A program made the position numbers and the translations under genes. DNA of 31,168 bases, taken from positions 1 through 31,168 of the IMG/VR virus record IMGVR_UViG_3300010354_000354. One strand, written 5' to 3'. Every line of letters begins with the position of its first letter. Position 1 is the stretch's first letter. The DNA is from a virus. The notes under the pieces were generated by a model. It was not told where the DNA came from, made no database searches, and was given only the letters and a program-made list of their open reading frames with translations. Below, one piece after another: positions 332 through 29,905 of this stretch.

Positions 332-1006
332 CTATCTATCCTTGAAAAAATCTTTGAGTCTGAGATCAGTATAATCTTTGTGGCTCCAGGCATGGTTGGG
401 CTGATCTTTGAGTAGATTAAACAGCTTCAACCCCCGGGCAGCATCTTCGGGGATCATATGATAATGATATCCAAGTTCTTTGATGTTGTCATTGCTGTGA
501 CCTTTGGTGCGATCTCGGCCGTCTCTGACCATCCTTTGCAGTTTTTCGTAATGTTGTTTGTTGTCTAGGAATATCATTCCTCCTTTGCCTATGGGCAAAT
601 GCTTTTGATACTGGAAACTGATCACCATGTAAGTGCCGGATTCATAGCTGTTGGCTGCAAATAGTGTGGCAGCATCTACTACGGGATAAGGATCCAACCG
701 ATAAGACCCCTGCCATTTGATATCCACCAATCGATAATCTATGTTTAAAATTTCCAACGTCATGGGCACACTGACATAGGTATAACAAGGCACAGTGACC
801 GGCGATGCTGCTTTTGGCAACAGTCGCAAACACAATTCTAGTCCGTGGCTGCAACAGTCGGTGGCCACCGCATAAGGAGAACCAACATAGTCTGCTAGTG
901 TTTTTTCAAAATGATCTACCACTTGCCAGTTTTCGCTGAATGTCAATCCAAACTCTTCCAACTCTTGGATATCTGTTCTTTTGACACCTGGTAGATCCGC
1001 GTTCAT
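332..1006 (-). CDS. Compact DegT/DnrJ/EryC1/StrS-family PLP-dependent aminotransferase
   Basis: The 224-aa product has the landmarks of the DegT/DnrJ/EryC1/StrS sugar-aminotransferase family. The N-terminal segment FEKTLADYVGSPYAVATD leads into the substrate-entry block, PCYTYVSV (73-80) is the usual P-x-T-x-V strand, and D111 in VVDAA is the expected partner of the pyridine nitrogen. SFQYQKHLPIGKGG (130-143) contains the probable Schiff-base lysine K135. The helix PEDAARGLKLFNLL (187-200) matches the family's A-A-x-G-x-x-Q-L block. Family members are usually about 370 aa, so this protein keeps the PLP core and lacks most of the C-terminal small domain. Such compact versions occur in T4-like aquatic phages, and I see no frameshift. 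Its ATG overlaps the gp47 stop by four bases (ATGA), implying translational coupling. The likely role is amino transfer to a keto-sugar or related metabolite. Activity without the C-terminal domain is uncertain. Confidence 0.8.
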   Translation of the reverse strand: MNADLPGVKRTDIQELEEFGLTFSENWQVVDHFEKTLADYVGSPYAVATDCCSHGLELCLRLLPKAASPVTVPCYTYVSVPMTLEILNIDYRLVDIKWQGSYRLDPYPVVDAATLFAANSYESGTYMVISFQYQKHLPIGKGGMIFLDNKQHYEKLQRMVRDGRDRTKGHSNDNIKELGYHYHMIPEDAARGLKLFNLLKDQPNHAWSHKDYTDLRLKDFFKDR

Positions 1007-2019
1007 AAAGTTTGATAGATCTGTAGCAGCAATTTAGGATCGTAGAACTCCGATTCAATCCGGGAGATCTGATCCGTCACAATCTGGTCCACGCTTTCAA
1101 AACGCACCTCGCCAGGGGATAGATCTTCTTCCAGGGCCGATCGTTTGTTGGGGATCAAGGCCATCTCTCGCAGCCCATACTGCTGTATGAATGTCTCGCG
1201 GATGAAATTGGCTTCTTCGTAGCTGATCTCGATGTCCAGCTGCACACGCACATGCATGTTGGGCCGTAGGATAGTGGCCGCATTGTCGATCACATGCGAC
1301 AGGTTCCACACATTGTACAGTGGCTGATCGGGCCAGGCATGGAATTCGGGTTCCTGCCCCCACTCCAGAATCATACAACCTCGCTGGCTGTCACCTGCAT
1401 CAGCAAAGTTGTGTGGAAAACAGTTGCCGATGTAGGTCACGTTGTTGCGTTGTTGTCGGAGATGGAAGTGTCCCGAGAATACCCGTTCAATACCACCAAA
1501 GTGTTCGCTGCGGATCTCGCCGTGATCGGGCATCTCAACCATGGCGTTCATCTTGAAATGTGGCAGCTCAAAGTGTCCAAACATGTAACGAGCCTGCATC
1601 CGAGAGATGCGTTTGTGATCATCACCTACTAGCCAGGGCGCGATGATCACATCACCCGACTGGAACCAGTCATTGCAGATCTGGATGTTGGGAATGTGCC
1701 GAGCCCAGGCCGCACCGTGGATGTCACGGCGATCTCGGTAGTAGAGATCGTGATTGCCGGGTATGAAATAGAACTGATCAAAGGCCTGGCTCAGGCGCTC
1801 TAATGCCCCAAGGCTGAAGTCCAGAGTGTGGAGATTGATAGATGCGCGATGATGATGCCAGTCGCCTAGGAAGAAGCCAGTTTCACAGCCTTCTACTTGG
1901 GCGAGAGCAATGGCCCATTGCACAAATCGGTCGCAATCTTGGTTGTGCAAGAGGCTGTTGCTCTTGAGGCCAAAGTGTATGTCTGTGAATACCAGGGCTC
2001 GACGGAATAGATTTGTCAT
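1003..2019 (-). CDS. 47: gp47-like recombination endonuclease subunit (SbcD/Mre11-type metallophosphoesterase)
   Basis: The 338-aa product matches the length of T4 gp47 (about 339 aa) and shows all the metallophosphoesterase motifs in order: D13-x-H15, GDWHH (52-56), GNHD (88-91), GHFE (148-151) and GHFH (183-186). In T4, gp47 is the nuclease subunit that pairs with the SMC-like ATPase gp46 to process DNA ends for recombination-dependent replication and to degrade host DNA. No gp46 gene lies in this window and it may be nearby. The start ATG follows the gp55 stop by 9 bases with a weak ACGAG ribosome site, and the 3' end overlaps the aminotransferase start. The gene therefore sits inside a tight minus-strand transcript headed by the late sigma gene. 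Identification is strong; the remote alternative is another SbcD-like phosphoesterase. Confidence 0.92.
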   Translation of the reverse strand: MTNLFRRALVFTDIHFGLKSNSLLHNQDCDRFVQWAIALAQVEGCETGFFLGDWHHHRASINLHTLDFSLGALERLSQAFDQFYFIPGNHDLYYRDRRDIHGAAWARHIPNIQICNDWFQSGDVIIAPWLVGDDHKRISRMQARYMFGHFELPHFKMNAMVEMPDHGEIRSEHFGGIERVFSGHFHLRQQRNNVTYIGNCFPHNFADAGDSQRGCMILEWGQEPEFHAWPDQPLYNVWNLSHVIDNAATILRPNMHVRVQLDIEISYEEANFIRETFIQQYGLREMALIPNKRSALEEDLSPGEVRFESVDQIVTDQISRIESEFYDPKLLLQIYQTL

Positions 2020-2028
2020 CTCGTTATT

Positions 2029-2913
2029 TTACTGATCTTCCGTGGGAGTTGCAACGCTTTGTGGCTTGGTCTGGCTATATTGACGGGTCCAGCTGGGATT
2101 GAGCCCGTTGATCTCTAGTATGTCGTCGCGGATGTTCTGCATCTTTTTTTCGATGTTGAGCACCCGGGTGAAGCTGTTGGTTATGGCCGCGGTGTAGTAG
2201 GCGAATGGGTTGGAGCTCTTTGACTCGTCGAATTGTAGACCAATCTGCGATAGCTGTAGCAGTGCCTGCCCACGCATCTCTTCGTTGTAGGTGTAACCTC
2301 GCCAGTTTGAACGAGTGGCATAGCGTTCGCACAGCTTCATGAACATCATGGCCAGTTTGCGAGTCATGGTGCCGTGATCTTTGCAAAACTCACCGGAGTC
2401 AAGATCTCCCTGCCAGTGGCTTTTGCCCACGATGTAGGGCACCCGATGTTCATTCACACGATAGTGAAAAAAGGGCGGAAAGTTTACACGGATGTGTGTG
2501 GGATCTTGCACGATCTCCTCAACCAGCGTCTCGTCGGGTTCAACAGTGACATCTTCCAGGTCCAGGATATCTTCCAGACGGCGTTTCTTGGCCTGGGCGC
2601 GAGCGGGTTTTTTGGGTGCTAGTGGTATGTGTTCCCAGGTCATCACCCGGAACACCAGATCAGTGTTGGCGATCTTTTTTTCATTCACTTCCTGCCCCGT
2701 TTCGCGACTGAGTCGATCGGCTCGATTGCGGCGAGCTTCTGCTATGGTGCGTTGATTGATACGGGCCACGCTGGGCAGTATGATGTCGTACTGGTGGTCT
2801 AGTTCGCGATCGCGGAACACGCAATAGCTGTTTTTGCTCTGGTGTATTTCCTTCAGTATGTCGCGATTATTGAGATAGTTTACTTTGGCAGGTGCAGTTG
2901 TGGGGGTGGGCAT
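2029..2913 (-). CDS. 55: gp55-like late-transcription sigma factor
   Basis: The C-terminal third carries the strongly conserved gp55 block: NWRGYTYNEEMRGQALLQL, then IGLQFDESKSSNPFAYYTA, then NSFTRVLNIEKKMQNIRDD, ending with INGLNPSWTRQ. This block is characteristic of gp55 of T4-like aquatic phages. In T4, gp55 replaces sigma70 on host RNA polymerase and recognises TATAAATA, working with gp33 and the sliding clamp gp45. At 294 aa it is much longer than T4 gp55 (185 aa). The extra length is N-terminal and includes a charged linker (PKKPARAQAKKRR region) and an acidic stretch. GGAGAACGAGG before the ATG supports the start at 2913. A TAAATA-type octamer lies 21 bases upstream on the same strand, so the gene may be transcribed by its own product. 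It heads the minus-strand cluster and diverges from the baseplate genes it presumably activates. Confidence 0.93.
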   Translation of the reverse strand: MPTPTTAPAKVNYLNNRDILKEIHQSKNSYCVFRDRELDHQYDIILPSVARINQRTIAEARRNRADRLSRETGQEVNEKKIANTDLVFRVMTWEHIPLAPKKPARAQAKKRRLEDILDLEDVTVEPDETLVEEIVQDPTHIRVNFPPFFHYRVNEHRVPYIVGKSHWQGDLDSGEFCKDHGTMTRKLAMMFMKLCERYATRSNWRGYTYNEEMRGQALLQLSQIGLQFDESKSSNPFAYYTAAITNSFTRVLNIEKKMQNIRDDILEINGLNPSWTRQYSQTKPQSVATPTEDQ

Positions 2914-2934
2914 TACCTCGTTCTCCAGGGTTGA

Positions 2935-2942
2935 TATTTAGT
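2935..2942 (-). promoter_or_regulatory. Late-promoter-like octamer ACTAAATA upstream of gp55
   Basis: Read on the minus strand, ACTAAATA keeps six of the eight bases of the T4 late consensus TATAAATA. It ends 21 bases before the gp55 ATG, with a good ribosome site (GGAGAACGAGG) between. If T4 spacing holds, a leader of about 16 bases results, suggesting gp55 feeds back on its own synthesis. Confidence 0.5.
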
Positions 2943-2999
2943 ATAGCATCTGTTGTGAACCTGTCAATGGTTTTCTAAAAAATACCAGTTTAAACCGCA

Positions 3000-3007
3000 G
3001 GTAAATA
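3000..3007 (+). promoter_or_regulatory. Late-promoter-like octamer GGTAAATA upstream of gp48
   Basis: GGTAAATA ends 18 bases before the gp48 ATG at 3026. The next site on this strand is 8 kb downstream, so this one probably serves gp48, gp53, the 964-aa protein, gp5 and the 484-aa protein. The first two bases differ from the T4 consensus, as in the site before gp25. Confidence 0.5.
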
Positions 3008-3025
3008 TCACTTGAGAACACCGTC

Positions 3026-4966
3026 ATGGCATACGATCCTAAAAAGGCTGCTGCATACAATCAACTGAGACAGCAAGGGCTGTCGGAAGATGCTGCTCTG
3101 GCTCAGGCCGGCATCACCGATCCAGCTGATTATGCCGTAAATGACGTACCCGGAGACCCCAATCGCGGAACCCTGGGTCCGGCCATAATTGGTGGTGGCA
3201 AGGTGGCTGGCGTGGATTACGAAGTACCTACCACGGCTGAATTGCAAGCATCAGGTGGTTGGTTGGATCAACCCATAGTGGCCCAGTATCCAGTCAAGGC
3301 CAACTCCAGCTCTAGCACTGTGACCTATAGTTCTTACACCAATACCAGCACTGAAACTGTTTCTGGTGGTGGTAGCACCACGATCACACGATTGCCTCCC
3401 ACCCCAAATGCCAGCAGTCAGGCTCTGCAACCCAGCATAGATGCAAAGCAGGCTGAGATCAATCAATTCATACGGGACAATCCCAGTAATTTTGAACGGC
3501 AACGGCAAGGGTTGCCCCTGTTGAGCCCAGAAGAAAATCTCGCAAGGAGCCAGCAGTACAACACGTTGATCGGGCAGAGAGCCGCGTTGGTAAACCAACA
3601 GCAAGACCTACAGACCCCGGGCGGCACGTCAACAACCACAGTACCAAATACCACGACCACTACCACCACAGTGACACAGGTCACAGCGGCCACTGGTGCG
3701 GCCGTGGAACCCAACACAGATCCCAGTCTACAGCAGGCCGAAGAACAGCGACTGGGAGTGGCACCAGAATATACCGGCGGTGTGCAACAGGCTCCTGGCG
3801 GCGTTGACACGGCAGCCTTGACAGAAGCTGGCGCAGCTTTTGCTGATGAAGATACCCAGGCTTTTGCCCCTAATCCAGTAGATGATCCTGCGGCTGCTTT
3901 TGCCAATGAAGATGCTCAAGGGTTTGGCGGACAACCGGTCAACAGTCCTGCTAGTGTGCCTCCCAGTCTAGCAGGGCCCGTGGGAATTCCCTATGACGAC
4001 GAGGGCAATCTCAATCCTGGTTGGACGTTGGATGAAGAAAACAATCCAGTTTTTGTGGGTGGAAATTTTGTAGAACCTGCCACGGCAGCATCAGCGGCCG
4101 CCAGCCTCGAGCAGGCCACTCTGCTGAGAGCTCAGCAACAAGCTACACTGCAACAACGCTACAATCAAACCACTTCGGGTGCCGATTGGCGAGTGCGTAT
4201 CCGGCTAGCACCACAGGCCAATTATCTTTATCGTGCTCGGCCACCGGGCATATTGAATCCTTTGGTGCAGACAGATGGTGTGATTTTCCCCTATGTGCCC
4301 ACCATACAGACCAGTTACCAGGCTGCTTATGATCGCACACCACTCACACACAGCAATTACCAAGGTTATTTTTACAAAAACAGCTCAGTGGGTGATATCA
4401 ACATTACCGGAACTTTCACTGCCCAGGACACTAAAGAAGCTGAATACCTCCTGGCCGTGATACATTTTTTCCGCTCGGCTACCAAGATGTTCTACGGCAA
4501 GGACGAATATCGAGGAGCGCCGCCACCCTTGGTGGAGCTGTCGGGATTTGGTGCTTATCAATTCAACAACCATCCTTGCCTGATCAGTAATTTCCAGTAC
4601 TCACTGCCCAATGCAGTGGACTATATCAGAGTGAATCCCAACAACCAGGGACAGAATCTGGTTATCAATAGAAATCAAACTTCCAGTTCGCCTGTGAGCA
4701 CAATTGAAACGGCTTTGAATCGCATCAGCAGTCTGGTCAACCTGGCCACAGGGCAGGGCGTGGCACCTGGTGCTCAAGGGCGGGGCAGCACGGATTTGGG
4801 TTTCGTGGCACAGACAGTGAGCGGAACCACCCAGACTACATACGTGCCTACCAAAATCGAGATCACTGTGACATTGTTGCCGGTCCAGACACGCAGTCAG
4901 GTCAGCCAACAGTTCAGTCTAAAGAAATTCGCTGCGGGTGACCTGCTGAGAGGAGGATTCTGGTAA
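3026..4966 (+). CDS. 48: gp48-like baseplate tail-tube cap protein with long N-terminal extension
   Basis: Residues about 382-646 form the gp48 domain known from T4-like aquatic phages: WRVRIRLAP, then DGVIFPYVPTIQTSYQA, HSNYQGYFYKNSSV, FTAQDTKEAEYLLAVIHFFR and SATKMFYGKDEYRG, then a CLISNFQYSLPNAVDYIRV segment. In T4, gp48 caps the hub and starts tail-tube polymerisation with gp54, a relative of similar fold, so gp54 is the main alternative; no second copy is present here. T4 gp48 is 364 aa. The extra 380 N-terminal residues are mostly low complexity: a helical opening (AAAYNQLRQQGLSEDAALAQ), Ser/Thr runs around residues 90-125 and 200-220, and a twofold repeat of about 20 residues near 268-308. 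The start at 3026 follows a late-promoter-like octamer and only a weak TTGAGAA ribosome site. The stop overlaps the gp53 start (TAATG). Confidence 0.88.
   Translation: MAYDPKKAAAYNQLRQQGLSEDAALAQAGITDPADYAVNDVPGDPNRGTLGPAIIGGGKVAGVDYEVPTTAELQASGGWLDQPIVAQYPVKANSSSSTVTYSSYTNTSTETVSGGGSTTITRLPPTPNASSQALQPSIDAKQAEINQFIRDNPSNFERQRQGLPLLSPEENLARSQQYNTLIGQRAALVNQQQDLQTPGGTSTTTVPNTTTTTTTVTQVTAATGAAVEPNTDPSLQQAEEQRLGVAPEYTGGVQQAPGGVDTAALTEAGAAFADEDTQAFAPNPVDDPAAAFANEDAQGFGGQPVNSPASVPPSLAGPVGIPYDDEGNLNPGWTLDEENNPVFVGGNFVEPATAASAAASLEQATLLRAQQQATLQQRYNQTTSGADWRVRIRLAPQANYLYRARPPGILNPLVQTDGVIFPYVPTIQTSYQAAYDRTPLTHSNYQGYFYKNSSVGDINITGTFTAQDTKEAEYLLAVIHFFRSATKMFYGKDEYRGAPPPLVELSGFGAYQFNNHPCLISNFQYSLPNAVDYIRVNPNNQGQNLVINRNQTSSSPVSTIETALNRISSLVNLATGQGVAPGAQGRGSTDLGFVAQTVSGTTQTTYVPTKIEITVTLLPVQTRSQVSQQFSLKKFAAGDLLRGGFW
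3828..3950 (+). repeat. Twofold imperfect ~20-residue repeat inside gp48 extension
   Basis: Two neighbouring segments align at protein level: AAFADEDTQAFAPNPVDDPA and AAFANEDAQGFGGQPVNSPA. The DNA also matches in blocks (GCTTTTGC then GATGAAGATA versus AATGAAGATG). This is an internal duplication in a probably disordered, acidic linker that precedes the folded cap domain. Confidence 0.8.
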
Positions 4967-5265
4967 TGGCCACCTACGACGCCACAAGTCCCTACTACAC
5001 CACAAAGTACAGTCAGTTCTTCCTGGATGTCATGAACAATCGTGATATTCCCAAGCAGAGTGATGATATCTTGACCACTATCAGTCTTACCTATCAGTAT
5101 CGACCAGATCTCATGTCGTTTGACCTTTACGGCACGCCTGCACTATGGTGGGTCTTTTATCAAAGAAACCCCAACACCCTGACCGCACCTCCCTGGGATT
5201 TTCGTGCAGGCACTAGAATCTACCTGCCCAAAGAATCCACACTCAAATCAGTGTTGGGCTATTGA
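4966..5265 (+). CDS. 53: gp53-like baseplate wedge protein
   Basis: The 99-aa product shows the core of the gp53 family of T4-like aquatic phages: YQYRPDLMSFDLYGTPALWW (about 44-63), then VFYQRNPNTL, and WDFRAGTRIYLPKESTL near the C terminus. In T4, gp53 (196 aa) joins the wedge late, contacts gp6 and gp25, and enables wedges to assemble round the hub. This version keeps only the conserved core, as is usual in these phages. Its ATG overlaps the gp48 stop (TAATG), so translation is probably coupled, with AGGAGGA about 8 bases upstream inside gp48 as a strong ribosome site. The stop lies three bases before the next gene. The hydrophobic, aromatic-rich sequence fits a buried assembly protein. 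Confidence 0.85.
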   Translation: MATYDATSPYYTTKYSQFFLDVMNNRDIPKQSDDILTTISLTYQYRPDLMSFDLYGTPALWWVFYQRNPNTLTAPPWDFRAGTRIYLPKESTLKSVLGY

Positions 5266-11121: not shown

Positions 11122-11129
11122 GGTAAATA
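11122..11129 (+). promoter_or_regulatory. Late-promoter-like octamer GGTAAATA abutting gp25 start
   Basis: GGTAAATA is identical to the site before gp48 but ends only five bases before the gp25 ATG at 11135. No purine-rich ribosome site lies between or just upstream. In T4 the late octamer covers about -13 to -6, which would put transcription start on or next to the A of the ATG. Confidence 0.45.
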
Positions 11130-11134
11130 TTGTC

Positions 11135-11509
11135 ATGACCACTTTTGTCGGATTCAGCACAGTAAATCGAGCCAAACAGTTCACACTCACGGACTATGAG
11201 CTGATCAAACAGGATCTAGTTAATGCGTTCAACATACGCCAGGGCAGCCTGCCTGGTCGTCCGGCCACGGGCACTGTGATCTGGGATTTTCTCTTTGAAA
11301 ATCAAATCGAAGAGCTGCAAAACAACATCAACAAAGAGATACAACGTGTGGTTGCCCAAGACCCCAGGATCACTGTCACTGACCTCCAGGTTTCCCCCCA
11401 GGAAAATGGCATTTTGATCCAGCTGCAAGTGGAAACAGTTTCTAGCACCACGGCTGAACAGCTGAGTGTGTTTTTTGATTTGCAGCAGCGTCGCGCATCC
11501 TATGTATAA
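11135..11509 (+). CDS. 25: gp25-like baseplate wedge protein
   Basis: The 124-aa product matches gp25/TssE-family wedge proteins in length (T4 gp25 is 132 aa). It has the aquatic T4-like opening (MTTFVGFSTVNRAKQFTLTD), LVNAFNIRQGSLPGRP with the family's conserved RxGxxxxxP region, and the TVIWDFLFENQIEELQNNI segment. In contractile tails, gp25 contacts gp6 and nucleates the first sheath ring. The start at 11135 is supported by family alignment but lacks any visible Shine-Dalgarno sequence. A late-promoter-like octamer ends five bases upstream, so a leaderless message is possible. gp6 follows after 55 bases. Confidence 0.9.
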   Translation: MTTFVGFSTVNRAKQFTLTDYELIKQDLVNAFNIRQGSLPGRPATGTVIWDFLFENQIEELQNNINKEIQRVVAQDPRITVTDLQVSPQENGILIQLQVETVSSTTAEQLSVFFDLQQRRASYV

Positions 11510-11564
11510 CTGAGCCTTTTTTGTCCTCCATAAATACTTGGAGCGACAATGAGGCCCAGCAACG
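11510..11564 (+). promoter_or_regulatory. gp25-gp6 spacer with T-run and ribosome sites
   Basis: This spacer has a run of six T (11515-11520 area) without an evident stem before it, so I do not call it a terminator. It then holds a late-promoter-like octamer, a strong GGAG (11540-11543) placed for an ATG at 11549, and a GAGG placed for the gp6 ATG at 11565. Confidence 0.5.
11529..11536 (+). promoter_or_regulatory. Late-promoter-like octamer CATAAATA upstream of gp6
   Basis: CATAAATA differs from the T4 late consensus only at the first base. It ends 28 bases before the gp6 ATG at 11565 and would drive gp6 and the coupled giant gene, an 18-kb unit with no later site until 29735. Confidence 0.65.
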
Positions 11565-14500: not shown

Positions 14501-15260
14501 ATGGTCACCCGGACAGGTATTTTACGCCTACGGCGAATCGACCTTTTATCAGCTGTCACTGTCCACCACAGGCGTGCTGGAAGTTAATGCTGTTTCAGGT
14601 TGGCAAGCACGCACCGGCAGACAGGCCTTGTATTATCAATATCGGCACAACGCGCCTCTCACCAATCGCATCGATCCAGGTACCACCAACATCATTGATC
14701 TCTATCTGGTTACCCAGCAGTATTACACTGCCTATCAAAACTGGCTGCGTGATACTACTGGCACGGTGATCGAGCCTGAACAGCCCACTATCGGTGAACT
14801 GTCCACGGCTTATCAGGGTCTAGGTGATTACAAAATGATCAGCGACAATATCGTGCTGAACAGCGTACAGTTCAAGCCCTTATTCGGGCCCAAGGCCTCT
14901 CCTGAACTGCGAGCTACCATCAAGGTCATACGTGCAGCCAACAGCACTGCCAGCACTTCTGAGATCAAGAGCGCGGTGCTGGCACAGATGAATGCCTACT
15001 TCAGCATTGACATTTGGAATTTTGGTGACACATTTTATTTCAGTGAACTGGCGGCATATTTGCATCGCACTCTGGGTACCATTATTTCTTCAGTGGTGTT
15101 GGTACCCCTGGATCCGCAAAAGAGCTTCGGCGATCTTTATGAGATACGTAGCCAACCCAATGAAATATTTGCCAATGGAGCCACCATTGACAACATTGAC
15201 GTGATTGAGGCTCTGACCAGCACCAATCTGCGCACAGCACCCGGTAGTGGAGTAATTTGA
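11565..15260 (+). CDS. 6: gp6-like baseplate wedge protein, enlarged
   Basis: The N terminus is the conserved gp6 block of aquatic T4-like phages: IFGVEDWKQIYQTYREADFQ, LRKSFIDYLRLYYPETFNDY, ESSEFIALLDIIAFMGQSLA and FRTDLNTRENYLDTAERRDS. The C terminus (about 1147-1231) carries the second conserved block, with DTFYFSELAAYLHRTLG, SFGDLYEIRSQPNEIF and a terminal TIDNIDVIEALT. T4 gp6 (660 aa) dimerises to form the inner baseplate ring joining the wedges. At 1231 aa this protein is almost double. Extra material lies between the blocks, including a module at residues 563-618 that is repeated in the giant protein downstream. The start at 11565 has a GAGG with a long spacer, while a better-placed ribosome site serves an out-of-frame ATG at 11549. 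The stop overlaps the giant gene's ATG (TGATG). Confidence 0.92.
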   Translation: MAQTTRQTAIFGVEDWKQIYQTYREADFQSYDFETLRKSFIDYLRLYYPETFNDYVESSEFIALLDIIAFMGQSLAFRTDLNTRENYLDTAERRDSVVRLANLVSYTAKRNTAAEGLLKVFNVTTTENVVDYNGVNLGSVTVNWNDPTNPDWQEQFTAIINAALVDSQKIGRPGNRQNILGVRTDEYAINLVPGFLPVIPYTSVVDGINMPFEAMSSTTVGENYIYEPSPRPGVSFNMLFRNDQLGFASADTGYFFLFKQGVLQNQDFNLAERIANRTVDINIEGINNTDRWLFQLDNVGTITREWAYTENIYTAAGEQQQQLRPIYTTTSRTNDQITMVFGDGVFSEIPVGTFRAYVRASNGLQYIINPEEMQNVVLPISYISRNGNLETITFTCGITKPVSNAQARESIDAIKQRAPARYYTQNRMVNGEDYNLFPFTAYNSILKSKALNRSSIGTSRYLDLVDNTGKYSSTNTFGSDGGLWRENILPTVLFSWVNRNEIADVITNRVQPSLAETTMRQFYYANFPRQSMNTLDLIFTATTDTVNTITLSTDQQDSFFSNYAFIGQTIVFTGTVSGGLISGLTYYIVALDSVNGTIKVSAAPNGSPITLTTTLATMPATVNLSTFGSTWNQSTTLANQTTGYFQDSAGNPVSVGTTSSTRFKYAIVGSLVKFIAPTGYYFDRNNRLQLGTATRADDRQEIWASPISVAGDGSNNGLGNLSNGQGPVALNNFVPTGAIVDTIIPLFATDLPTAIESQMAEQIELFKTFGLGYDNDGSITGTPYSWYLITSTNIDVDAPWSQEYAGNTSGTNLDASWLVQFVVQNQNYTITFRGLAYNFGSVLQTRFFFYGGQNIYDSRTGTVIKDFVNVLAVNTQPDSTSPLPGDIQMTIIDQPVQPDGYVDDFQVLVGFRDNDNDGVPDNPDFFDEIVAPDVSPNQKLIFLQQVVDFDNLQRYVLVEPGRVNSDYATLDDIELAKTEWSPGQVFYAYGESTFYQLSLSTTGVLEVNAVSGWQARTGRQALYYQYRHNAPLTNRIDPGTTNIIDLYLVTQQYYTAYQNWLRDTTGTVIEPEQPTIGELSTAYQGLGDYKMISDNIVLNSVQFKPLFGPKASPELRATIKVIRAANSTASTSEIKSAVLAQMNAYFSIDIWNFGDTFYFSELAAYLHRTLGTIISSVVLVPLDPQKSFGDLYEIRSQPNEIFANGATIDNIDVIEALTSTNLRTAPGSGVI
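13251..13418 (+). repeat. Module shared by gp6 and the giant protein (copy 1)
   Basis: Residues 563-618 of gp6 contain FIGQTIVFTGTVSGGLISGL, then TYYIVALDSVNGTIKVS and a PNGSPITLTT segment ending at M618. The pattern GQ-x-x-x-F-T-x-x-x-x-GGL-x-x-G-x-x-YY, then VS-x-x-PNG, then a terminal M recurs in the giant protein. Related modules are scattered through tail proteins of aquatic phages. Confidence 0.75.
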
Positions 15261-18200
15261 TGGCAAGAATCAGGACCGTAGACCTACTGCCCGAGATTTT
15301 CCAGACAGACGCCAATCGCCAATTTTTGGCAGCAACACTGGACACTCTGGTTCAAGAACCCAAGTTCAAAAAAACACAGGGTTTCATAGGCCGCACAGTG
15401 GGGCCAGGAGTTGTGCCCAATGACAAGTACGTGGTTGAGCCTACCAAGACGCGAGCCGACTATCAGCTAGAACCCGGGGTTATCAGCCTCAACCCACGCA
15501 ACACCAATCAGATCCAGGATGCCATCACCTGGCCAGGCATACTTGAGGGAATCACTGCTCGCGGTGGTGACGGTACCAGGCCCGACCGTTTGTCTGCCAG
15601 CGATTATTATACTTGGGATCCTTTCTGCGATTTTGACGCATTCGTGAACTTCAGCCAGTACTATTGGCTGCCCAATGGACCCGATCCCGTGGATGTCAGC
15701 GCCACTGGCACCCCAGTCTCAGACACCTTTACTGTGACCAGAGCCAACGGTGTCTATACCTTCTCGGGTGTGCCCGGCGAGAACCCCATCCTGCAGCTGG
15801 TACGCGGCGGCAGTTATGTGTTTGATGTGTCCCAAAACAGCAAAGAAACTGTGAATTTCCGGGTCAGCAATCAGTCACTGTCGGGCTATCTTGTAGACAA
15901 TCAATTGAACCCTACCCTGACTCTGATTAGGGGCAACACCTATGTGTTCAATCTGGTATTGCGCGGTCCTTTCCCGTTCTGGATCAAGACTCAGCCCGAA
16001 CTGGGTACCAGCTTTGCCTACAACAACGGCGTCACTCGCAATGGTAGCCTCACGGGCCTGGTCACTTTCACGGTGCCCCAGGATGCGCCCAACACTCTCT
16101 ACTATGTGGCAGAAAATCAGACCAATCTACGCGGTCAGATCAACGTGATAGATGGTACCCCGGGTACCGGACCGGGATTCTGGATACAGACCGAACCAGG
16201 GGTGTCAGGAGTCAGAGCCGCCAGCCCCAACATCAGCACCCGGCAGGTCTTGGGAGTGACCAACAACGGTGAAGATCTGGGCACAGTGATTTTCAACGTG
16301 CCTACCAAAACGCAGCAGGAATACTACTATAACCTGCCGGTGTTCAGCCTCCCAGTAGATCTGGTAACCACTCTCACCATAGATGATCTCCAAGGGCAAA
16401 GCATAGATGCCATTGTGGCCACCTATGGCGGCATCGATGGCATCACCAGTCTCAACACACGCACACTGATTTTTGTGGGCACGGACACAGGCATTCCAGG
16501 ACCTGATGCCAGACAGCTATATCAGATCAACTATTTTACCAACGGCATAGATGGCATAAACTATCTCAACATAAGCAAAATTTCGGACATACCCGACGAA
16601 TGCCAGTGGACTGTGCGATATGGCGCTGAGTATTCCAATATTGCCTGGTACAAAACTGCACAGAGCACATTCAAACAGGTACCGGCACTGACCGCTGCGT
16701 TAGATGTGCTATATTATCAAGATGGCACTGATCCCGGCATCGTGGGCCAGATACAGTTGGTTGAGCCTGTAGCAAGTGCCACCATCTATATCGACAACAT
16801 ACTAGGCAAACTCAACTACGAGAGTCCTAATGGTGTGACTTTCACTAATGGTCTCAAAGTGGTATTTCGCGGCGACGTGGTGCCAGCCAGCTATGGCAGC
16901 AACACTGTGAGTTTCGTGTGCACCAGCACTACAGATCAGTTGGATCTAATCACCACCTATGACACCAGCATCCTTTATGAAGGTCAAGAACTGATTTTTA
17001 CCGCTCCTACCATCGGCGGCCTGCAGGCGGGCGTACCCTACTATGTGAATGCCGTGGTCAATGGTCAACAGTTCACCGTGTCCAGCACGCCCAACGGCAA
17101 TCGGGTGACACTGCAGGTGGGTTCAGGCACCATGAACACCACGGCCCTGAACTATCGTGAATACTATGTGGAAGGTGTAGGCGAGGCCATCCAGTTGTTA
17201 CCAGTCACTGACTTTGTGACACCTGAGCTCTATGTGGAAGACGGCGATGACAGCGTATCGGGCAATCAACCACGCGACCCCGATTACGTCACTATCAATC
17301 GTGCCAGCCCCGATCTCAACGCCTGGAGTCGCAGCAATCGTTGGTTCCATATTGATGTGATTTCGGCCACAGCCGAGTACAACAACACCATAGCTGATGT
17401 ACCCGCTTCTGCCAAGGCACGCCGCCCTATCATCCAGTTTAGATCAGGACTGCGTCTGTTCAACATGGGCACCCAGGGCAAGCAGCCAGTGGATGTGATG
17501 GACTTCACTGAAACAGACGCATTCAGTAACATAGAAGGCGCTACCAGTTATGAAGTGTATGGTTACCAGTTCGTGAATGGTACCCGGGTTATCTTCGCCA
17601 ACGACAGCGACGACGATGTGCGCAATCGCATCTATCAGGTGGAGTTTATCTATCCCGACACCATAGATCCTGTGCCCACCCAGCCAGTGATACACCTGGT
17701 TCCCACCAGTGATTCACAGGTGCTAGTGGACCAGTGCGTAGTCATACTCAACAGCGGTACCGCGCTCAATCCCATACCCACCGGGCTGATTACCACGGTA
17801 GACGGGCAAGTGCTGACCAAAGGTGAAGCTGGTTATACCTATTGGTACGACGGAGAGCAATGGATCAAAGCTCAACTCAAGACCAGTGTGCAACAGCCGC
17901 CACTGTTTGATGTTTACGATTCTGTGGGTGTGAGTTTTGGCACTGTGGCCAAGTATCCCAGCACCAATTTCGTAGGGTCCAAGCTGTTCAGTTATGCTCA
18001 GTCAGATTCGTCTGTGGCCGATGCGGTCCTGGGCTTTCCCTTGCGTTATCTCACAGTGGCCAACGTGGGCGATATCGTTTTTGACAACAATCTCTACACT
18101 GACAGTTTTATCTACACTCGCGACAATGCCAGTGCGGAGGTAAAGATCAGCACAGGCTTTCCACGCGAATACACTGATCGTACCAACTACCAACGTCTCT

Positions 18201-21200
18201 TGGGCTGGCAAACAGCAGCCACCACGTCTTTGGATTATCAGCAGTTCCGTTTCGTGTTCACCACTGTGGATCTTGAGTTGGATGTGGCAGTGAGCGATCG
18301 CACAGATGTGCCGGTGATCAAGATCTACATCAATGGCGCTTTCCTTGACCCGGCCAATTTCATCTACACAGTGCAGGGCAGTCGCACCTTGATCACGTTG
18401 AACCAGGCGCCACCTGCAGACAGCGTGATTGAAGTATTGGCCCTGAGTGATCAGACCAGCGAGTTGGGTTTTTACCAAGTGCCCATCAATCTGGAAAACA
18501 ATCCTTTCAATGCCAACAGTACCAACTTTACTCTGGGCACAGTGCGACAGCATTATCAAAGTATCTGTGAAAATCTTGTGACCTTTGACGGCAAAGTCAA
18601 TGGTCCTAACAACACCAGAGATCTTGGCAATATTGGTCCCTATGGTCTGGTCATACTGCAACAGAGCGCACCGTTGACTTTGGCCGGATATTTCCTGCGC
18701 AGTCAACAGTTCAATCTGTTCAACAGCTTGGTCTACAATGGTCGTGAATACACCAAATTCAAAAATCTCATACTGGAGAACGTGACCCAGCAGACCATAA
18801 ATTTTCAAACCGCGGCTCAGATCCTAGACACCGCCATAGAGAATGTCACAGCAGGTCGGGTGGAAACGCAGCCATTCTACTGGTCAGACATGCTGCCGTC
18901 GGGCGCGATCTATCAGGAAACCAATTACACGATCAGCTTCACTACGACCAATACCTTTGACACCCTACAGAACTACAATTACCAATCGGCCAACTATCTT
19001 GGCATGAATGTGTACCTGGACAATGTGATTTTGATACGTAATCAGGACTATGTGGTGGCCACCGACGGAGCTCGTATAACGGTGCTGGTGCCACTGACTG
19101 TGGGACAAACATTGACCCTGCGTGAATACTCCAGTACTGCGGGCAGTTTTTGTCCTAACACACCCACAAAACTGGGATTGTATCCGGCCTGGGAACCGCG
19201 TGTGGTGACACAGACCACGTCGGACGGCGAACAGGCCATGATAATTGGTCACGATGGCAGCGCCACCAAAACATTTGGTGACATCCGTGACGAAGTACTA
19301 TTGGAATTTGAACGCAGGATTTACAACAACCTCAAACTGGATGGCAATCCTGTACCTTTGACTATCGCAGATGTTCTACCTGGTGAATTCCGCAATACCG
19401 GATTCAGCCTCGACGAGGTGCAGAACATACTGAACCAAGATTTCCTCAGCTGGGTGGCCTGGAACAAATTGGACTATGTGGCACAACAGTATCAATCCGC
19501 TAACGCCTTTACCTACAATTACAGCGCCAGCCAGAGCCGGTTGGACAATGGCTATCTGCCTGGTGCCTGGCGCGGGATCAACAGATATTTCTATGACACT
19601 GTGCAACCTCAGTTTACGCCTTGGGAAATGCTGGGATTCTCAGTCAAACCCAGTTGGTGGGATCTGACCTATGGTGATGCGCCTTATACCAATGGCAATC
19701 TGGTGTTGTGGGACGACCTTGAGGCGGGCATCGTGCGCGATCCACTGGGTGCCTATGTGCTACCTCAGTATGTGCGTCCAGGCCTGACACAGGTGATTCC
19801 ATCGGGCAGCGAAGGTGAACTGCTGCCTCCCCTGGATACCGTGGTAGGCACATACGATGCTCAACAGTTTGACAAGCCCTGGGCTCTGGGTGATGGCGGT
19901 CCTGTAGAGGCCAGCTGGTGGAACAGCAGCCTTTATCCATTTGCCGTGATGCGTCTCTTGGCCCTGACTCGGCCCGCTAAGTTTTTCTCGCTGTTTGCGG
20001 ATCGCGATCTCTATCGTTACAACGATGAATTTGACCAGTATCTCTACAATGATCGCTACCGGCTGGACGCCAATGGCATACAGGTCTATGGCAATGGGGT
20101 CAGCAAGGCCAGCTTCATAGACTGGATCGTGGACTACAATCGCCAGACCGGTCTAGACAGCACCGATCAACTGCAAGCCGATCTGGCCAATCTCGACGTG
20201 AGATTGTGCTATCGCATGGCCAGCTTCAGTGACAAACAATACATCAAACTGCTGACAGAAAAAAGCACACCGGATAGCACCAATACCGGATTCACCATTC
20301 CTGACAACAGTTACGATCTACTGCTGTACAAAAACCAGCCTTTCTCTCAGACCACCTATAGCGCAGTATTAGTACAACGTGCCGCAGATGGCTATCAGGT
20401 GTTTGGTTATAGCACATTGTCGCCCTATTTCACGGCATACACCACGGGTCCCACAGGTCGCCCGGAAACTATCAGCGCCGGAGGAGAAACGGTACGGGTT
20501 AGCACTGTTTTTACCAATCAAACGGTAAGAGTGCCTTACAGCACCACATTTGCCACTACCACAGAAGTTTGCGAGTTCCTGTTGGGCTATGGACGCTGGT
20601 TGGAAACTCAAGGATTCACGTTTGATTCTGTGGCCAACGGTTATCAGTTGAACTGGCAGCAGATGGCCGTGGAATTCCTCTACTGGGCAGGACAGGGCTG
20701 GGATGAAAACACCCTTATCGCACTCAATCCTTTGGCGCAGCGCCTACAGGTCGCGCGAGCGGGAGCAGTGGTAGACAGTCTCACAGCACAGACCATGGAC
20801 AATGTTCTGCTGGACCAGAACCGCAAACAGTTGCCCACACGCAATCTCAATATCGTACGGCTTGACAATACCTTGACCGTGGAGCCCTTGGTAGATCAGT
20901 CGCTCAGCTATGTGGATCTCAACTACACCAGCTATGAGCACATGATCGTGCTGAACAATCGCAGTGAGTTTGGCGACCTGATCTATGATCCTACCACGGG
21001 TGCAAGACAGTTCCGTTTGACCTTGGTCGCTTCTAATACCACAGAGTGGAACGGCAACATAGATGCGCAGGGCTTTATTCTCAATCGTGACAATGTGGAG
21101 CAATGGACTGGACTGCGTACCTACGCCAAGGGCGAAGTGGTGCGATACAAAGGCAGTTACTGGAGCGCAGCCAAGATCGTACAGCCCGCCACCGACTTCA

Positions 21201-24200
21201 ACTACAATGATTGGCTACAGAGCGATTATGAACAGATAGAGCAGGGCCTGTTGCCCAACCTAGCCAACAAGGCCGATCAATTGCAAGTCAGCTACGACAT
21301 CAATGATGCCAATCTCGACAGTGAGGCAGATCTGTTCAGCTACGGACTGATAGGATTCCGACCACGACAGTATTTGGCCGCCCTCAATCTCGATGATGTG
21401 AGCCAGGTCAATGTGTACAGACAGTTCTTGGGCAGCAAAGGCACCATACTCAGTGCCGAGAATCTGCGTTCGGCTCGCCTAAGCAAAGAACAGGCCGACT
21501 ACGATATCTATGAAAACTGGGCGGTGCAGCGCGGTGTGTATGGTGCCAACGCCAATCGCAGCTTTTTCGAACTAAGATTAGATCGGTCCCTGTTGAACGC
21601 TAACCCCAGCACTATCCAGGTTATCAATCCTGTGGAACAGAGCCAAGCGGATCAGGCCATACAGTTGGGCAGCGTGTGGCGCGAAAGCTACAAGCTCACG
21701 TCTCCCAACATCTTGCCAGTCACCGTGGACACGCCCACAGATGTGGGATTGCCCAGTGCAGGGTATGTCAACCTTGACGACGCAGATATAACGGTATTTG
21801 ACATCAACGATCCTGCCAGTCTAGCAGCCAATCTCAACAGCATAGCCGTTGGTACCACTATCTGGGTGGCCAAAATCAACGATCATGACTGGAACATCTA
21901 TCGTGCAGAATCAGTGCCTGGCATAGTGCAACATGTGTGTGACAACCTGGATGGTACCAGCCTGGTCATCTTCAGTCAACAGCACGGCCTGATCGCGGGC
22001 GACAAGCTGATAATAAGATTCTTTGATACGGATGTGGATGGGGTTTACACTGTGCTCACAGTGCCCAATCTGACCACGGTTACCATCGCATTCCAGTTTC
22101 CAGCCGACGGCCGCACCGTGATCGATGGCTCTGGTACTGGTTTTACACTGAAAACCCAGCGAGTGGCGCAGTTCAGTGATGTGATTGATCTGCCCTATGC
22201 CAATCAGTTGATTCCTGGAGCCAGGGTTTGGGTAGACGACAACGGTGGCGATCGCTGGGCGGTCTATGAAAAACAAGACATATTCTCGCCGACCACTGCC
22301 CTGTCACCACAAAATCTTGATGCTACAGAAAATTATGGCTCGGCCGTGGCCTTGGCCGTGGATCAACAGGCAGCACTGGTAGGCAGCCCGCGCTATGGAT
22401 TCAGTACCGGAACTGAAAAAGGCGCGGTCTACACCTATGTCAAAAACTTCAACGGTGCTTATCAACCTGTAAGCCCTGTGCCAGGACTTGATGCACTGCT
22501 GGAACTGGGCACATCCGGAGCCAGAGCCTATGGAACCAGTGTGGATTTTGGTCGCCTGGACTGGGCAGTAGCTGGTGCTCCGCTGAGCCTGGGCAATAGC
22601 AGTCAAGCGGATTGTGGTTATGCCTGCGTGATTTACAGAAACACTGCCAACTACACACCTGGCACCAATCCCTATGTGAACTGGCAGTTGTTGACCACAC
22701 CGGGTGATATCAACAATGACCAAGGTCAGTTTGGTTTTGCGGTGACCATGAGCACAGACGAGCGCTGGATGTATGTGAGTGCGCCATTCAAGGGCGATGG
22801 TGAAGTATATGCCTATGCTCGAGTACAATGGCAGGATCAAACAGTCAAAGCCACCGGCGATGGTGTAACACAAAACTATGCAATTGGATCAGTGATACAG
22901 ATCGACGATGCTGATCAGATCGCGGTCACCGTGGATGGTGCCGATCAGACTCTGGGTGTGGATTACACGGTAGACATCGCGAATCTACAGGTCAACTTTG
23001 TTACCGCTCCGGCCAATGGATTGCCCATAGTGATACAGCGTCGCAGCTTGATCTCGCTGGATCCCACCGCTGGACCCACCTACGATCTGGGACAGTATTT
23101 CTTCCAGGTCAATCTGACCGACAGCACCATCTACAGTTTTCAGGTGGAGCTGAATGGCGATCTGCTGCGCCCCAATATTGATTACACTTTCAACGCCACT
23201 ACCAAGATTGTCACATTCATAGTCGCGCTCAACCCTGGTGACAGTCTACTGGCCCGTGCCAATTGGTACTGGCAGTATGTGGACACTATCACTTGCCCGG
23301 TTGGTTCCGGCAGTGCTGCCCAATTTGGCTACAGCCTTGCATGCACTACTGATGGACGACAGATTTTGATTGGAGCCAAGGATAGAGACGTTGCCGGGCA
23401 GGTAAAGGCCGGTTGTGTGTATGTGTACGACCGAGACGTGCAGCGTTTCCAGTATGGTGAAACCAGCACCATCACTTTCACAGTACTGGGCTCTGCACCC
23501 GATCCACTGGCAGTGTCTGTGTTGGTGAATGGCAGCTTTTTGGTAGCTCAGACCAGCACCACTCCTGAAACCAACAACAGTTTCGCTATCAGCGGCAACA
23601 ATGTCACGGTGTTCACAGATTTGGTCGTAGGTGACTTTGTAGAGATCGAAACCAATCAGTTCAGCCTGGTGCAGACCATCACGCAAGATCAAGTGGCTGA
23701 ATTTAGCAATTATGGTCAAGCTGTGGACATCTGTAGCAACAATTGCAGCCTCTATGTGGGAGCACCTCAAAGCAGCCTGCAGATATTCAAAGGCGGTGTG
23801 GTAGAACGTCAGGTCAATCAGAGTCGTCTCTATGGCATCATCGTAGGCACCAATCAAAACCCCACTGTGACACCGGGCGATACACTACGAGTCAACAATC
23901 AAGATGTCTTGGTGCCTGCGGCATCTGGGTCCACGACCAGTCTGCAGGGTCTTATCAACAATATCAACAGCCAGGTACCCAATGTGACTGCTGCCTTGGT
24001 CAATGGTCGAGTTCAGCTATCAGTAAGCAATTCAGCCGCGGCCCCTTACGCAAACAAGCTACAGGTTGCGCCTGGCACCCTAGGCACCACCTTTGATGAT
24101 CTAGGGTTTGAAACATTCATATTCACGCAGACTATTACCAGTCCCTACGCTGTGTCCTACGCACAGTTTGGTGGTGTTATTACCATATCAGATACAGCCA

Positions 24201-27200
24201 CTGAATTGGTGGTGGGTGCACCCACCGGCAGCACGTACCTGATCATAGAATTTGACCAAGGTGATCTGGACTTTGACGCGGGCAGCACCATATTTTTCAG
24301 TGTTACAGATCAGAGTGGTGCGGTGTATATCTATAATTACCTGCCGGCCGCCAACGCCAGTGTCACCAACCCTGACACCTTTGTACTGGGACAGCAGATT
24401 GGTATCACAGACCTAGAAGGGCAAGACAAACTGGGCCAGGCACTCAGCTACATCAGTGGCGTGTTGTTCATGGGCGCCCCTGGCAGCGACGTCATGGACA
24501 GCAGCAGTGCAGACTATGGCCGGGTCTATGTGTGGCAGAATCCCAGTCGCGCTTCAGCCTGGCAGCTCATACATGTGCAAGAACCCACTGTGGATATCAG
24601 ATTGCTCAACAGTGTGTTTCTGTACAACCTGGTCACTTCTGCTACTACCGAGTTCCTCGACTTCTTCAACCCACTACAGGGCAAGATCCTGGGAGCTGCA
24701 CGCCAAAACATTGACTATATCAGCGCAGTTGACCCGGCCGGCTACAACGCAGGACCAACTGGTATAAGAGGCAACAGCTGGGGCCAGGATCACGTGGGCG
24801 AGACCTGGTGGGATATCACCACTGTGCGATTCGTCAATCCTGAGCAGAACAACATAACCTATGCAGCTAGGCAGTGGGCTCAGGTCTTTCCCGGCAGTTC
24901 TGTAGACGTGTATCAGTGGATCGTGAGCGATCAACCTCCGGCCGCTTATACTGGTCCTGGTACGCCCCACAGCAATCTCAGTTATACCATCAACTCTGTG
25001 CTGACGGATCAAGGCACCTTTCAGACACAGTATTTCTTCTGGGTTCGCGGATTGACCACAGTGGCTACCAACAAAGGCAAAAGTCTATCTGTTTCCACGG
25101 TATCCCAGTATATCCAAAATCCCAGGGCCAGCGGAATAGCTTATCTGGCACCCATCAATGCCAGCACTGTGGCCATCTACAATTGCGAAACCCTGATCGA
25201 AGCCCAGGACACTGTATTGCACATTGAATTTGATCGTGAACTCACCCAAGATAATGTGCACGTGGAATATGAACTGATTCCGCAGGGCCGGCCCGACGGT
25301 TTCTTGACCGACAATCTCTATCGCAAGATGCTGGACAGCTTCTGTGGAGTAGACACTGCAGGCAATCTGGTACCAGATATCACGCTGAGCCCGGCTGAGC
25401 GTTATGGCGTGCAGTTTCGACCGCGCCAGAGCATGTTTACCGACAGGTTCGCAGCACTCAAGGCCTACATCATCCGCGCCAATCAAATCTTGGCCCAATT
25501 TCCCATAGCTGAGATACGCAGCTTTGCTCTGCTCAACAGTGAAGAACCCATCCCGTCCAGCACCAGTGGCGCCTACAATGACACAGTGGCCACAGTAGAA
25601 ATTTTGAGTTTTCAGAATATCTATGCGGTGCCCTTGGGCTATCGATATCTGGTGCTGAGTGACTCCACCCAGCGCGGTCTATGGACCATCTATACCGTGG
25701 AAAGCGCGGGTGTGGGCGTGCGAGAATTGGTGATCACTCGTGTGCAGAACTACCGCACTCCTGACTACTGGAGCTATGTGAACTGGTACCTGCCGGGCTA
25801 CAACAGCAGCATCAGACCAGTGACCGAAGTGCCTAACACAGCGGCCCTGGACACCATCACAGTGCCACCGGGATCCAGCGTCAAGGTCACCGCCAATGCA
25901 CAAGGCAAGTTTGAAATATATCTGCGTTTGGCCGACAGTTGGCAGCGCGTGGGTCTGCAGGATGGTACCATCGAGATCAGTGCGGAAATCTATGACTATC
26001 TGCTGGGTCGTTTTGGCTGGGACGCAGAGGTTTTTGACGCTCAATACTTTGACCAAGATCCTACCACGGAAACACGCAAAATCTTGCAGGCGCTCAACCA
26101 GGAAATCTTGGTCGATGAACTGTTGATATACCGTAATGAGCTGTTGGTACTCACATTCAATTTTGTGCTGTCAGAATTCAGTGCACCTGAGTGGTTGGTC
26201 AAAACCAGCCTGGTCGATGTGGATCACCGTGTGCGCGGTCTGCTGCCGTTCCCCAACTATCTCAGAGACAACCAAGAATTCGTTATCGACTACATCCAGG
26301 AAGTCAAACCCTATCATGTGCAGGTGCGTGAATTCAACTTGCGCTATGACGGACAGGACCAGTTTGCTGGCGACATCACCGACTTTGATCTTCCGGCCTA
26401 TTACAACACTGATCTAGACGTAGCTCAGTTTACCAGTCCCATACTGCTGCCCTACGCGGCCAGCGTGGCCACTGGCAGTGCCAGCAATATCAACAGCGAT
26501 CAACCCGCAGACAGTCCTATTTGGACCACCTGGCCCTGGAATCAGTGGTACAACAATTACCTGCTGTTGATAGACAGTATCCAGGTAGTAGAGGGAGGCA
26601 GCGGTTATACTCAACCACCTCAAGTCACGGTGGTTGGTGATGCTGCTGTGGCCACTCTGGCCGAGGCCGTGATCGCAAACGGCGAGGTTACAGCCATCAA
26701 CATTACTCGACTAGGCAGCGGTTACCGTGATCAGCCTGAAATAGTACTAAGTGGCGGCAACGGTACCGGGGCCGCGGCCTATGCGTTCCTGGTGGGACAG
26801 GGCACGGGCAAGGTCTACAATACGACCCAACTGCCAGTGAATAATACCACCTACAATTTGGCTCGCAGCATCAGAGTCAACCTCAAGTTTGATCGCTATC
26901 AATTCAACACTCAGATTGAAACCTGGAATCCCAACGGCACCTATACCGAAGGCACACTGGTGCGTTATGAAAATCGAGTGTGGGAAGCCACACCCGACGA
27001 CAGTTCCGAAGTGGTGGGACCCACGTTCGATCTAGAAAATTGGACGGCTGTGCCAGCCAGCACGCTCAGCGGTGTAGACAGGACCATGGGCTTTTATGTG
27101 GCAGGAGTAGATGCTCCTGGCCTGGATCTGCCCCTGCTGGTGGATGGTATCAGTTATCCAGGAGTGCAGGTCTGGGGCGATAATTTTGTGCCCACGCAAC

Positions 27201-29749: not shown

Positions 29750-29905
29750 ATGGCCAAGAATGAATCCAATTTGAACACTGCACCAATGGCTCCAGCGCCC
29801 ATTGCTGCTAAGAGACCCAACGAAGCCGGCACCATCCGGGTAGAAGCTCACATGCGTATTTTTGACCCAAAAACTGGTCAGACTCTAGTGGAGGGGCGAG
29901 CATGA
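29750..29905 (+). CDS. 51-aa small protein related to the start of the next gene
   Basis: ATG at 29750 opens 51 codons ending in TGA at 29903-29905, overlapping the next ATG (ATGA). The N-terminal half (MAKNESNLNTAPMAPAPIAA) is low complexity. The C-terminal part HMRIFDPKTGQTLVEGRA is similar to FVRIHDPKTGEVLVDKRNA at the start of the 201-aa protein, and the DNA matches too. I recall similar very short proteins ending soon after a D-P-x-T-G motif in aquatic T4-like phages, so this is probably a real gene and not a broken copy. Function is unknown. Its position between two virion protein genes, and the coupled stop-start, suggest it is made together with the 201-aa protein and could be a partner or regulator of it. 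A late-promoter-like octamer lies seven bases before the start, and no good Shine-Dalgarno sequence is visible. Confidence 0.7.
   Translation: MAKNESNLNTAPMAPAPIAAKRPNEAGTIRVEAHMRIFDPKTGQTLVEGRA

Follow-up and report, generated by a model that had tools for sequence, protein, structure and literature searches.

Results

Genes and signals at the gp55 locus

The DNA analyzed in this work (the window) is a 31,168-base IMG/VR virus record, a fragment contig that is, judged by its gp55, a relative of the RaK2/PA5oct-type jumbo phages. The gp55 query matched 423 phage records, with Pseudomonas phage MIJ3 (41.5% identity) and PA5oct (41.1%) at the top. The gp55 gene (2029..2913, minus strand) encodes a sigma factor for late transcription, of the kind found in jumbo phages, with 294 amino acids (phrog_12791, E 2.1e-76; phrog_234, E 2.8e-23). 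A profile of 28 sequences matches the T4 gp55 chain 7d7c_F with an E of 1.5e-9, residues 179-255 of the profile aligning to residues 38-116 of the chain. The protein is a member of the late-sigma family by the homology of its sigma region 2 to T4 gp55, for which the limits of region 2 are those given in PMC2988020. It is longer than its T4 counterpart, with about 290 amino acids in this group compared to 185 in T4.

Behind gp55, across a gap of 9 bases in the window, lies a gp47-like SbcD-type nuclease subunit (1003..2019, minus strand; phrog_100, E 1.4e-54), the second gene behind the gp55 promoter. The position of gp47 downstream of gp55 recurs in relatives and in isolates, where intervening genes are possible, as in Phosso. 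A DegT-type aminotransferase of 224 amino acids (332..1006, minus strand; PF01041, E 9e-17) overlaps the gp47 stop. The original prediction had the aminotransferase and an oxygenase raised together with gp55. The tight arrangement behind gp47 agrees with this for the aminotransferase, which, like the small open reading frame after it, would share the promoter of gp55, but no match to the aminotransferase was found at E 1e-4 within the fetched stretches of 80 relatives, and the name oxygenase finds no support in Pfam or PHROGs. The minus-strand segment 3-1006 of the window, with the short DegT aminotransferase and a small open reading frame after gp47, occupies the place of gp46 in the relative L003. 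There, the gene is gp46-like (SbcC; phrog_77, E 2.8e-97) and is followed by a radical-SAM gene (phrog_21308); L002 has a similar open reading frame of 587 amino acids. Since the window has other genes at this place, the gp46 of this phage would be located elsewhere or missing.

On the opposite strand, the tail operon opens with a virion structural gene (3026..4966, plus strand; phrog_12050 'virion structural protein', E 3.1e-48). We take it to be gp48-like from its position and from the gene content of T4, not from a match to a profile of that name. It is followed by a gp53-like baseplate wedge subunit (4966..5265, plus strand; phrog_7145 'baseplate wedge subunit', E 1.6e-20). Further along, a single open frame of 4824 amino acids (15257-29731) comes after the gp6-like gene and is, by position, a putative very long tail-region protein.

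The start codons of gp55 (2913, minus strand) and of the gp48-like gene (3026, plus strand) are separated by exactly 112 bases (2914-3025). Two TAAATA hexamers lie within them, at 2940..2935 on the minus strand and at 3002..3007 on the plus strand, each aimed at its own gene. When the 112 bases are dinucleotide-shuffled 20,000 times, such a divergent, outward-facing pair arises in 0.25% of the shuffles and a single TAAATA on the gp55 strand in 5.6%. The divergent layout and the pair are thus as originally proposed. The proposal of an outward-facing octamer for each gene holds for the hexamer core only: the full 8-mers, ACTAAATA on the gp55 side and GGTAAATA on the gp48 side, share the core of the T4 octamer TATAAATA and differ from it outside the core. 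Across the whole window TAAATA is found 6 times against 5.99 expected by chance; with no excess, we dropped the number as evidence and used position in its place. All six copies stand just before a start codon and in sense (gp55, the gp48-like, gp25-like and gp6-like genes, and the open reading frames at 29750 and 30535), which argues that TAAATA is a credible late core in this phage.

A GGAG ribosome-binding site of gp55, read from the sequence, lies at 2923..2926 on the minus strand. The region also carries an inverted repeat, TAAATATCA with GAGAAC, with one copy on each side (2920-2940 and 3002-3019). Single-strand folding of the 112 bases pairs both copies together with GTTCTC/GAGAAC near the ribosome sites (z of -2.2; 4 of 200 shuffles fold equally well). 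We set this fold aside because, among the relatives listed, none carries TAAATATCA twice, once per side; L061 has the copy on the gp48 side.

The divergent order is conserved. Searching viral contigs with gp55 yielded 80 loci, among which a gp48-like match was found in 68, divergent from gp55 in every one; the other 12 either break off at or shortly upstream of gp55 or show no match in the at most 1.8 kb available. In the isolates PA5oct, RaK2, 121Q, Munch, Kae01, SNUABM_44, Atu_ph07 and Phosso, gp55 is divergent from tail genes in all cases; the tail side of Atu_ph07 and Phosso opens with a gene for a cytidylyl- or adenylyltransferase. Munch equals Kae01 in this region, so that the eight isolates represent seven distinct cases, and all conservation counts given here take related phages as independent events.

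The predicted early promoter of gp55

A near-consensus sigma70 promoter, which the original prediction had missed, overlaps the TAAATA facing gp55. Its -35 element TTGACA (2962..2967, minus strand) is separated by a 16-base spacer from the -10 element TATACT (2940..2945, minus strand) with a TG extension, and the predicted start is near 2933. The last T of the -10 element is the first T of the hexamer, a one-base overlap. The promoter (2967-2940) agrees with 11 of the 12 positions of the sigma70 consensus in addition to TG. Of the 14 matches that the scan threshold admits in the first 12 kb, it scores highest; shuffles yield 11.2 at this threshold. Shuffling the 112 bases produces TTGACA with a -10 element of at least 5/6 on the gp55 strand in 0.18% of cases.

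Conservation was followed in 63 non-duplicate regions (the window and 62 relatives), after exclusion of L052 (11 bases upstream), L051 and L081 (start off the contig) and 15 duplicates. In all 63, the best sigma70 match covers 9/12 positions or more and has the 16-base spacer. The match reaches 11 or 12 of 12 in 56 regions, TG is present in 57 and exact TTGACA in 58; the four regions at 9/12 at best (L059, L060, L065 and L080) have a poor -35 element. A strict form (TTGACA with a -10 element of at least 4/6) was compared with 100 shuffles of 61 regions: it occurs 56 times on the gp55 strand and once on the other, for a shuffle mean of 0.46 and a maximum of 3. Among the isolates, 121Q, RaK2, Munch, Kae01 and SNUABM_44 have a TATAAT -10 element on the gp55 strand and PA5oct has TTGACT-17-TAAAAT, while Atu_ph07 and Phosso show weak sigma70-like matches only. 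Intergenic early promoters of the TTGAC type in the contigs G004, G008 and G001 (L122-L159) lie on a single strand per contig (34/34, 15/15 and 19/19), and the strand of these 68 promoters is that of gp55 in all three contigs.

By its elements (TTGACA, a spacer within 16-18 bases and a TATAAT-like -10), the site at 2967-2940 is a predicted sigma70-type early promoter, and gp55 most likely starts from such a host-type promoter. The original prediction had gp55 raise its own synthesis through a late-promoter-like site before its gene, and had named, as the finding that would refute this, gp55 transcripts starting only at an early sigma70-type promoter. At the level of sequence the loci come close to that finding. 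The conserved element is of the sigma70 type in 63 of 63 regions, while TAAATA is present in 12 of 63 regions and in none of the eight isolates; as the main reading, a late promoter for gp55 is not sustained.

A similar arrangement has been described in the jumbo phages CBB and GAP32, for which PMC5259590 gives three promoter classes. In CBB, the gp55-like gene is located just downstream of a promoter of a second, non-late class, many other members of this class precede DNA-synthesis genes, and an ATAAATA motif precedes structural genes (PMC5259590). The CBB class has a TGAAACG -35 element, unlike the consensus TTGACA, 16-base spacer and TG extension seen here.

The predicted late promoter of the tail operon

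The late octamer facing the gp48-like gene, GGTAAATA (3000..3007, plus strand), is 18 bases before the start codon, with a predicted start near 3013. All 62 testable loci, the window included, and all 8 isolates have TAAATA on this side. The 62 come from 65 non-redundant loci, the contigs of L040, L052 and L081 ending 62 bases or less from gp55. On the gp48 strand TAAATA is found in 58 of 61 regions, for a shuffle mean of 8.6 and a maximum of 17. According to PMC1524935, late octamers span -13 to -6. A TAAATA core that occupies -11 to -6 in sense, ahead of a structural gene, makes the site, by sequence, a predicted late promoter of the T4 type. The claim that the baseplate genes have a gp55-type late promoter is supported by these counts.

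The likeness to the T4 system (gp55/gp33/gp45) comprises the TAAATA core upstream of structural genes and the gp55 homologue with its sigma region 2. T4 has TA before the core, unlike this group, in which the two preceding bases are mostly GG, CA, AA or TA. The profile of the clamp family (PF02916) matched 0 of 8 records, and the control was equally silent.

A further difference lies upstream of the core. In relatives, the block TATAAACTnnGCCGTTTTT precedes the gp48-side TAAATA by 8-9 bases; in the window the corresponding positions (2976..2993, plus strand) are degenerate, with a score of 3.3. A clear block (score 24.6) is found in the window at 11505-11522, ahead of the late hexamer (11531..11536, plus strand) of the gp6-like gene, which is identified by phrog_10646 and phrog_219, baseplate wedge subunit. 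The training set of the block model was 34 gp6 promoters of relatives, each represented only by the 24 bases that precede TAAATA at -26 to -3. It places 58 of 62 gp48-side sites above 99% of 188 TAAATA sites away from starts. The block was also tried as a general feature of late promoters and rejected, as the model recognizes 0 of 37 gp25 sites and 1 of 34 other upstream sites; on the gp55 strand it recognizes 0 of 18. In a whole-contig search the block core has 0-2 copies per contig and is present in 7 of 8 contigs, with none for the reversed control.

The block would lie at about -37 to -20 relative to the predicted late start. T4 late promoters have a -35 region without sequence conservation (PMC2988020), unlike the gp48 and gp6 promoters of this group, which bear the block. 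In relatives, the predicted gp48 promoter does have a conserved element at this place, shared with gp6. The site thus resembles a late promoter of T4 to which a block has been added, one that is degenerate in the window. The block suggests an extra DNA-reading factor, which is not described for T4.

The late hexamer of the gp25-like gene (phrog_43 and phrog_261, E about 1e-11) is located at 11124..11129 on the plus strand, 5 bases from the start. Among 42 loci, 37 have the gp25 TAAATA at 4-5 bases from the start codon, and three more have this spacing to an upstream ATG. This spacing puts the predicted late start on or beside the ATG, and the late mRNA of gp25 is predicted to be leaderless. 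Relatives also have a second divergent pair, in which late octamers stand face to face (L031 18811-18836, CCTATAAATATAGTTCTACTTATGGG; L003 18380-18403; and others). The minus-strand site of this pair, before a baseplate-hub gene (phrog_150), reads TAAGTA in ten loci and TAAATA in L003 and L027.

The hexamer facing gp55

The late-like 8-mer facing gp55, ACTAAATA (2935..2942, minus strand), overlaps the -10 element. At its position TAAATA is found in 12 of 63 regions, TAAGTA in 46 and other sequences in 5, and neither TAAATA nor TAAGTA follows the gp55 -10 element in any of the eight isolates, which are like the window in their divergent order and in the TAAATA on the tail side (8/8). By these counts, the site facing gp55 is not a TAAATA kept at the orthologous position. 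In the comparison with shuffles, TAAATA on the gp55 strand is found in 16 of 61 regions, slightly above expectation (mean 7.7, maximum 15), and TAAGTA in 44 of 61 (mean 5.7, maximum 12).

Within the relatives the hexamer is a constrained feature. Of 63 regions, 58 have TAA(G/A)TA after the gp55 -10 element, and the 66 other early promoters compared all lack it. These 66 come from three contigs, with 19 from a contig that has the hexamer at gp55 and the remainder from G004 and G008, in which gp55's own promoter is without it. As a general extension of early promoters TAA(G/A)TA is therefore unsupported. The columns of the hexamer are almost as constrained as the -35 element, and far more than the columns that follow. 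Its presence at gp55 and absence from the 66 others suggest that selection at this place may act on something more than an ordinary early promoter.

One explanation is a composite promoter, in which sigma70 would start gp55 early and the overlapping AATAA(G/A)TA (ACTAAATA in the window) would sustain a low, gp55-driven expression later. The constraint and the restriction to gp55 speak for it, within the limits of the comparison set given above. The identity of the fourth base speaks against it. That base is A in 62 of 62 sites at gp48 and 41 of 42 at gp25, whereas at gp55 it is A in 12 and G in 46; a Fisher test of the late sites (103 A, 1 G) against gp55 gives p 6e-28, with related phages taken as independent. 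Nor does TAAGTA behave as an ordinary late core. Its upstream and antisense counts are 31 and 7, compared to 49 and 15 for the control hexamer TAACTA and 106 and 7 for TAAATA, with no general enrichment. Despite this, TAAGTA stands before the baseplate-hub gene of the second pair in the ten loci noted above, and it stands 18 bases before gp25 in L053, the only one of 42 loci without TAAATA there. The exact 8-mer of the window, ACTAAATA, precedes gp25 in L004, a near relative, and GCTAAATA precedes gp25 in L020, L054 and L056, so both forms have counterparts at late sites. Among lineages without the hexamer, 2 of 5 have a TAAATA in the promoter spacer, compared to 1 of 56 others; the Fisher value of 0.016 comes from three loci only. 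Together with the absence of the hexamer in all eight isolates, these observations leave the composite promoter a possible and rather doubtful reading.

A second explanation is that the TAAATA facing gp55 has no late function and is a G-to-A change within a discriminator sequence, this sequence being kept for reasons of the early promoter. The hexamer sits at -7 to -2 of the sigma70 promoter and interchanges with TAAGTA. On the gp55 tree (from an alignment without L065) at least five changes between A and G are required, which counts for this explanation and against the composite promoter; the clade of the window (the window, L002, L003 and L004) has TAAATA throughout. The surroundings of the site point the same way. 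By dinucleotide score the site ranks at or below the 1% level of the 164 upstream training sites, and the 22 bases in front of it score under all 164 (L053:9970 and the sites of the window itself were excluded from the training set). The 5.6% frequency in shuffles also leaves room for chance. Against this explanation are the constraint on the hexamer relative to the columns that follow, its absence from other early promoters and the presence of the same 8-mer at the gp25 late site of L004. We regard it as plausible, at somewhat under an even chance.

The base before the hexamer bears on both explanations. In Aeromonas phage Aeh1 the late consensus is CTAAATA (PMC1524935 and PMC2988020), and ACTAAATA fits this consensus. 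In this group, unlike Aeh1, CTAAATA seldom stands upstream of a gene (5 of 49 occurrences, and 4 of 103 upstream TAAATA sites of relatives). The late sites here are mostly preceded by G or A, with ATAAATA upstream of a gene in 82 of 98 cases.

Discussion

From the sequences, orientation, conservation and spacing of these promoters we infer polymerase use, start sites and timing as follows. Host RNA polymerase with a sigma70-type factor would read gp55 and the genes behind it from TTGACA-16-TGnTAnnnT, starting near 2933. The gp55 protein would then direct RNA polymerase to GGTAAATA on the opposite strand, with a start near 3013, and the tail operon would be turned on. The order would be early sigma, then late tail genes, with no need for gp55 to act on its own gene. 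That the early sigma70-type promoter is the main driver of gp55, and that gp55 then turns on the tail operon, is in our assessment very probable.

The predicted starts are 80 bases apart. At the footprint sizes of RNA polymerase, polymerases at the two sites would partly overlap at their upstream edges, so that hindrance is as likely as help. In a mutual-exclusion reading, the gp55 polymerase at the gp48 promoter would block the overlapping early promoter, and gp55 synthesis would be self-limiting. The spacing is consistent with this, as 60 of 61 regions have 31-38 bases between the -35 element and the gp48-side TAAATA, but the upstream block of the gp48 promoter could instead explain why this spacing is so tight. 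We consider mutual exclusion quite unlikely.

The preferred reading, early transcription of gp55 from a sigma70-type promoter, bears on the positive feedback loop that was originally proposed, in which a little early gp55 would raise its own synthesis. Such a loop is not needed, as the early promoter would suffice; a weaker, secondary input through TAA(G/A)TA is possible. In its most specific form, the gp55 promoter would be two promoters in one: a sigma70 -10 element ending in a late octamer of reduced strength, AATAAGTA (in some lineages AATAAATA or ACTAAATA), read by sigma70 and then faintly by gp55. We hold this form to be unlikely. If true, it would be a tuned positive loop, the strength of which evolves by a single A/G change. 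In the open-licence PMC literature we found no account of gp55 autoregulation.

Autoregulation should not be read from the mere presence of TAAATA next to a sigma gene, since here the bases in question are also covered by a host promoter close to consensus. The late promoters of this group present differences from those of T4 that can be tested: the upstream block at gp48 and gp6 of relatives, and the predicted late starts on the start codon of gp25. The early sigma gene placed back to back with late tail genes would be one architecture across the RaK2/PA5oct-type jumbo phages examined.
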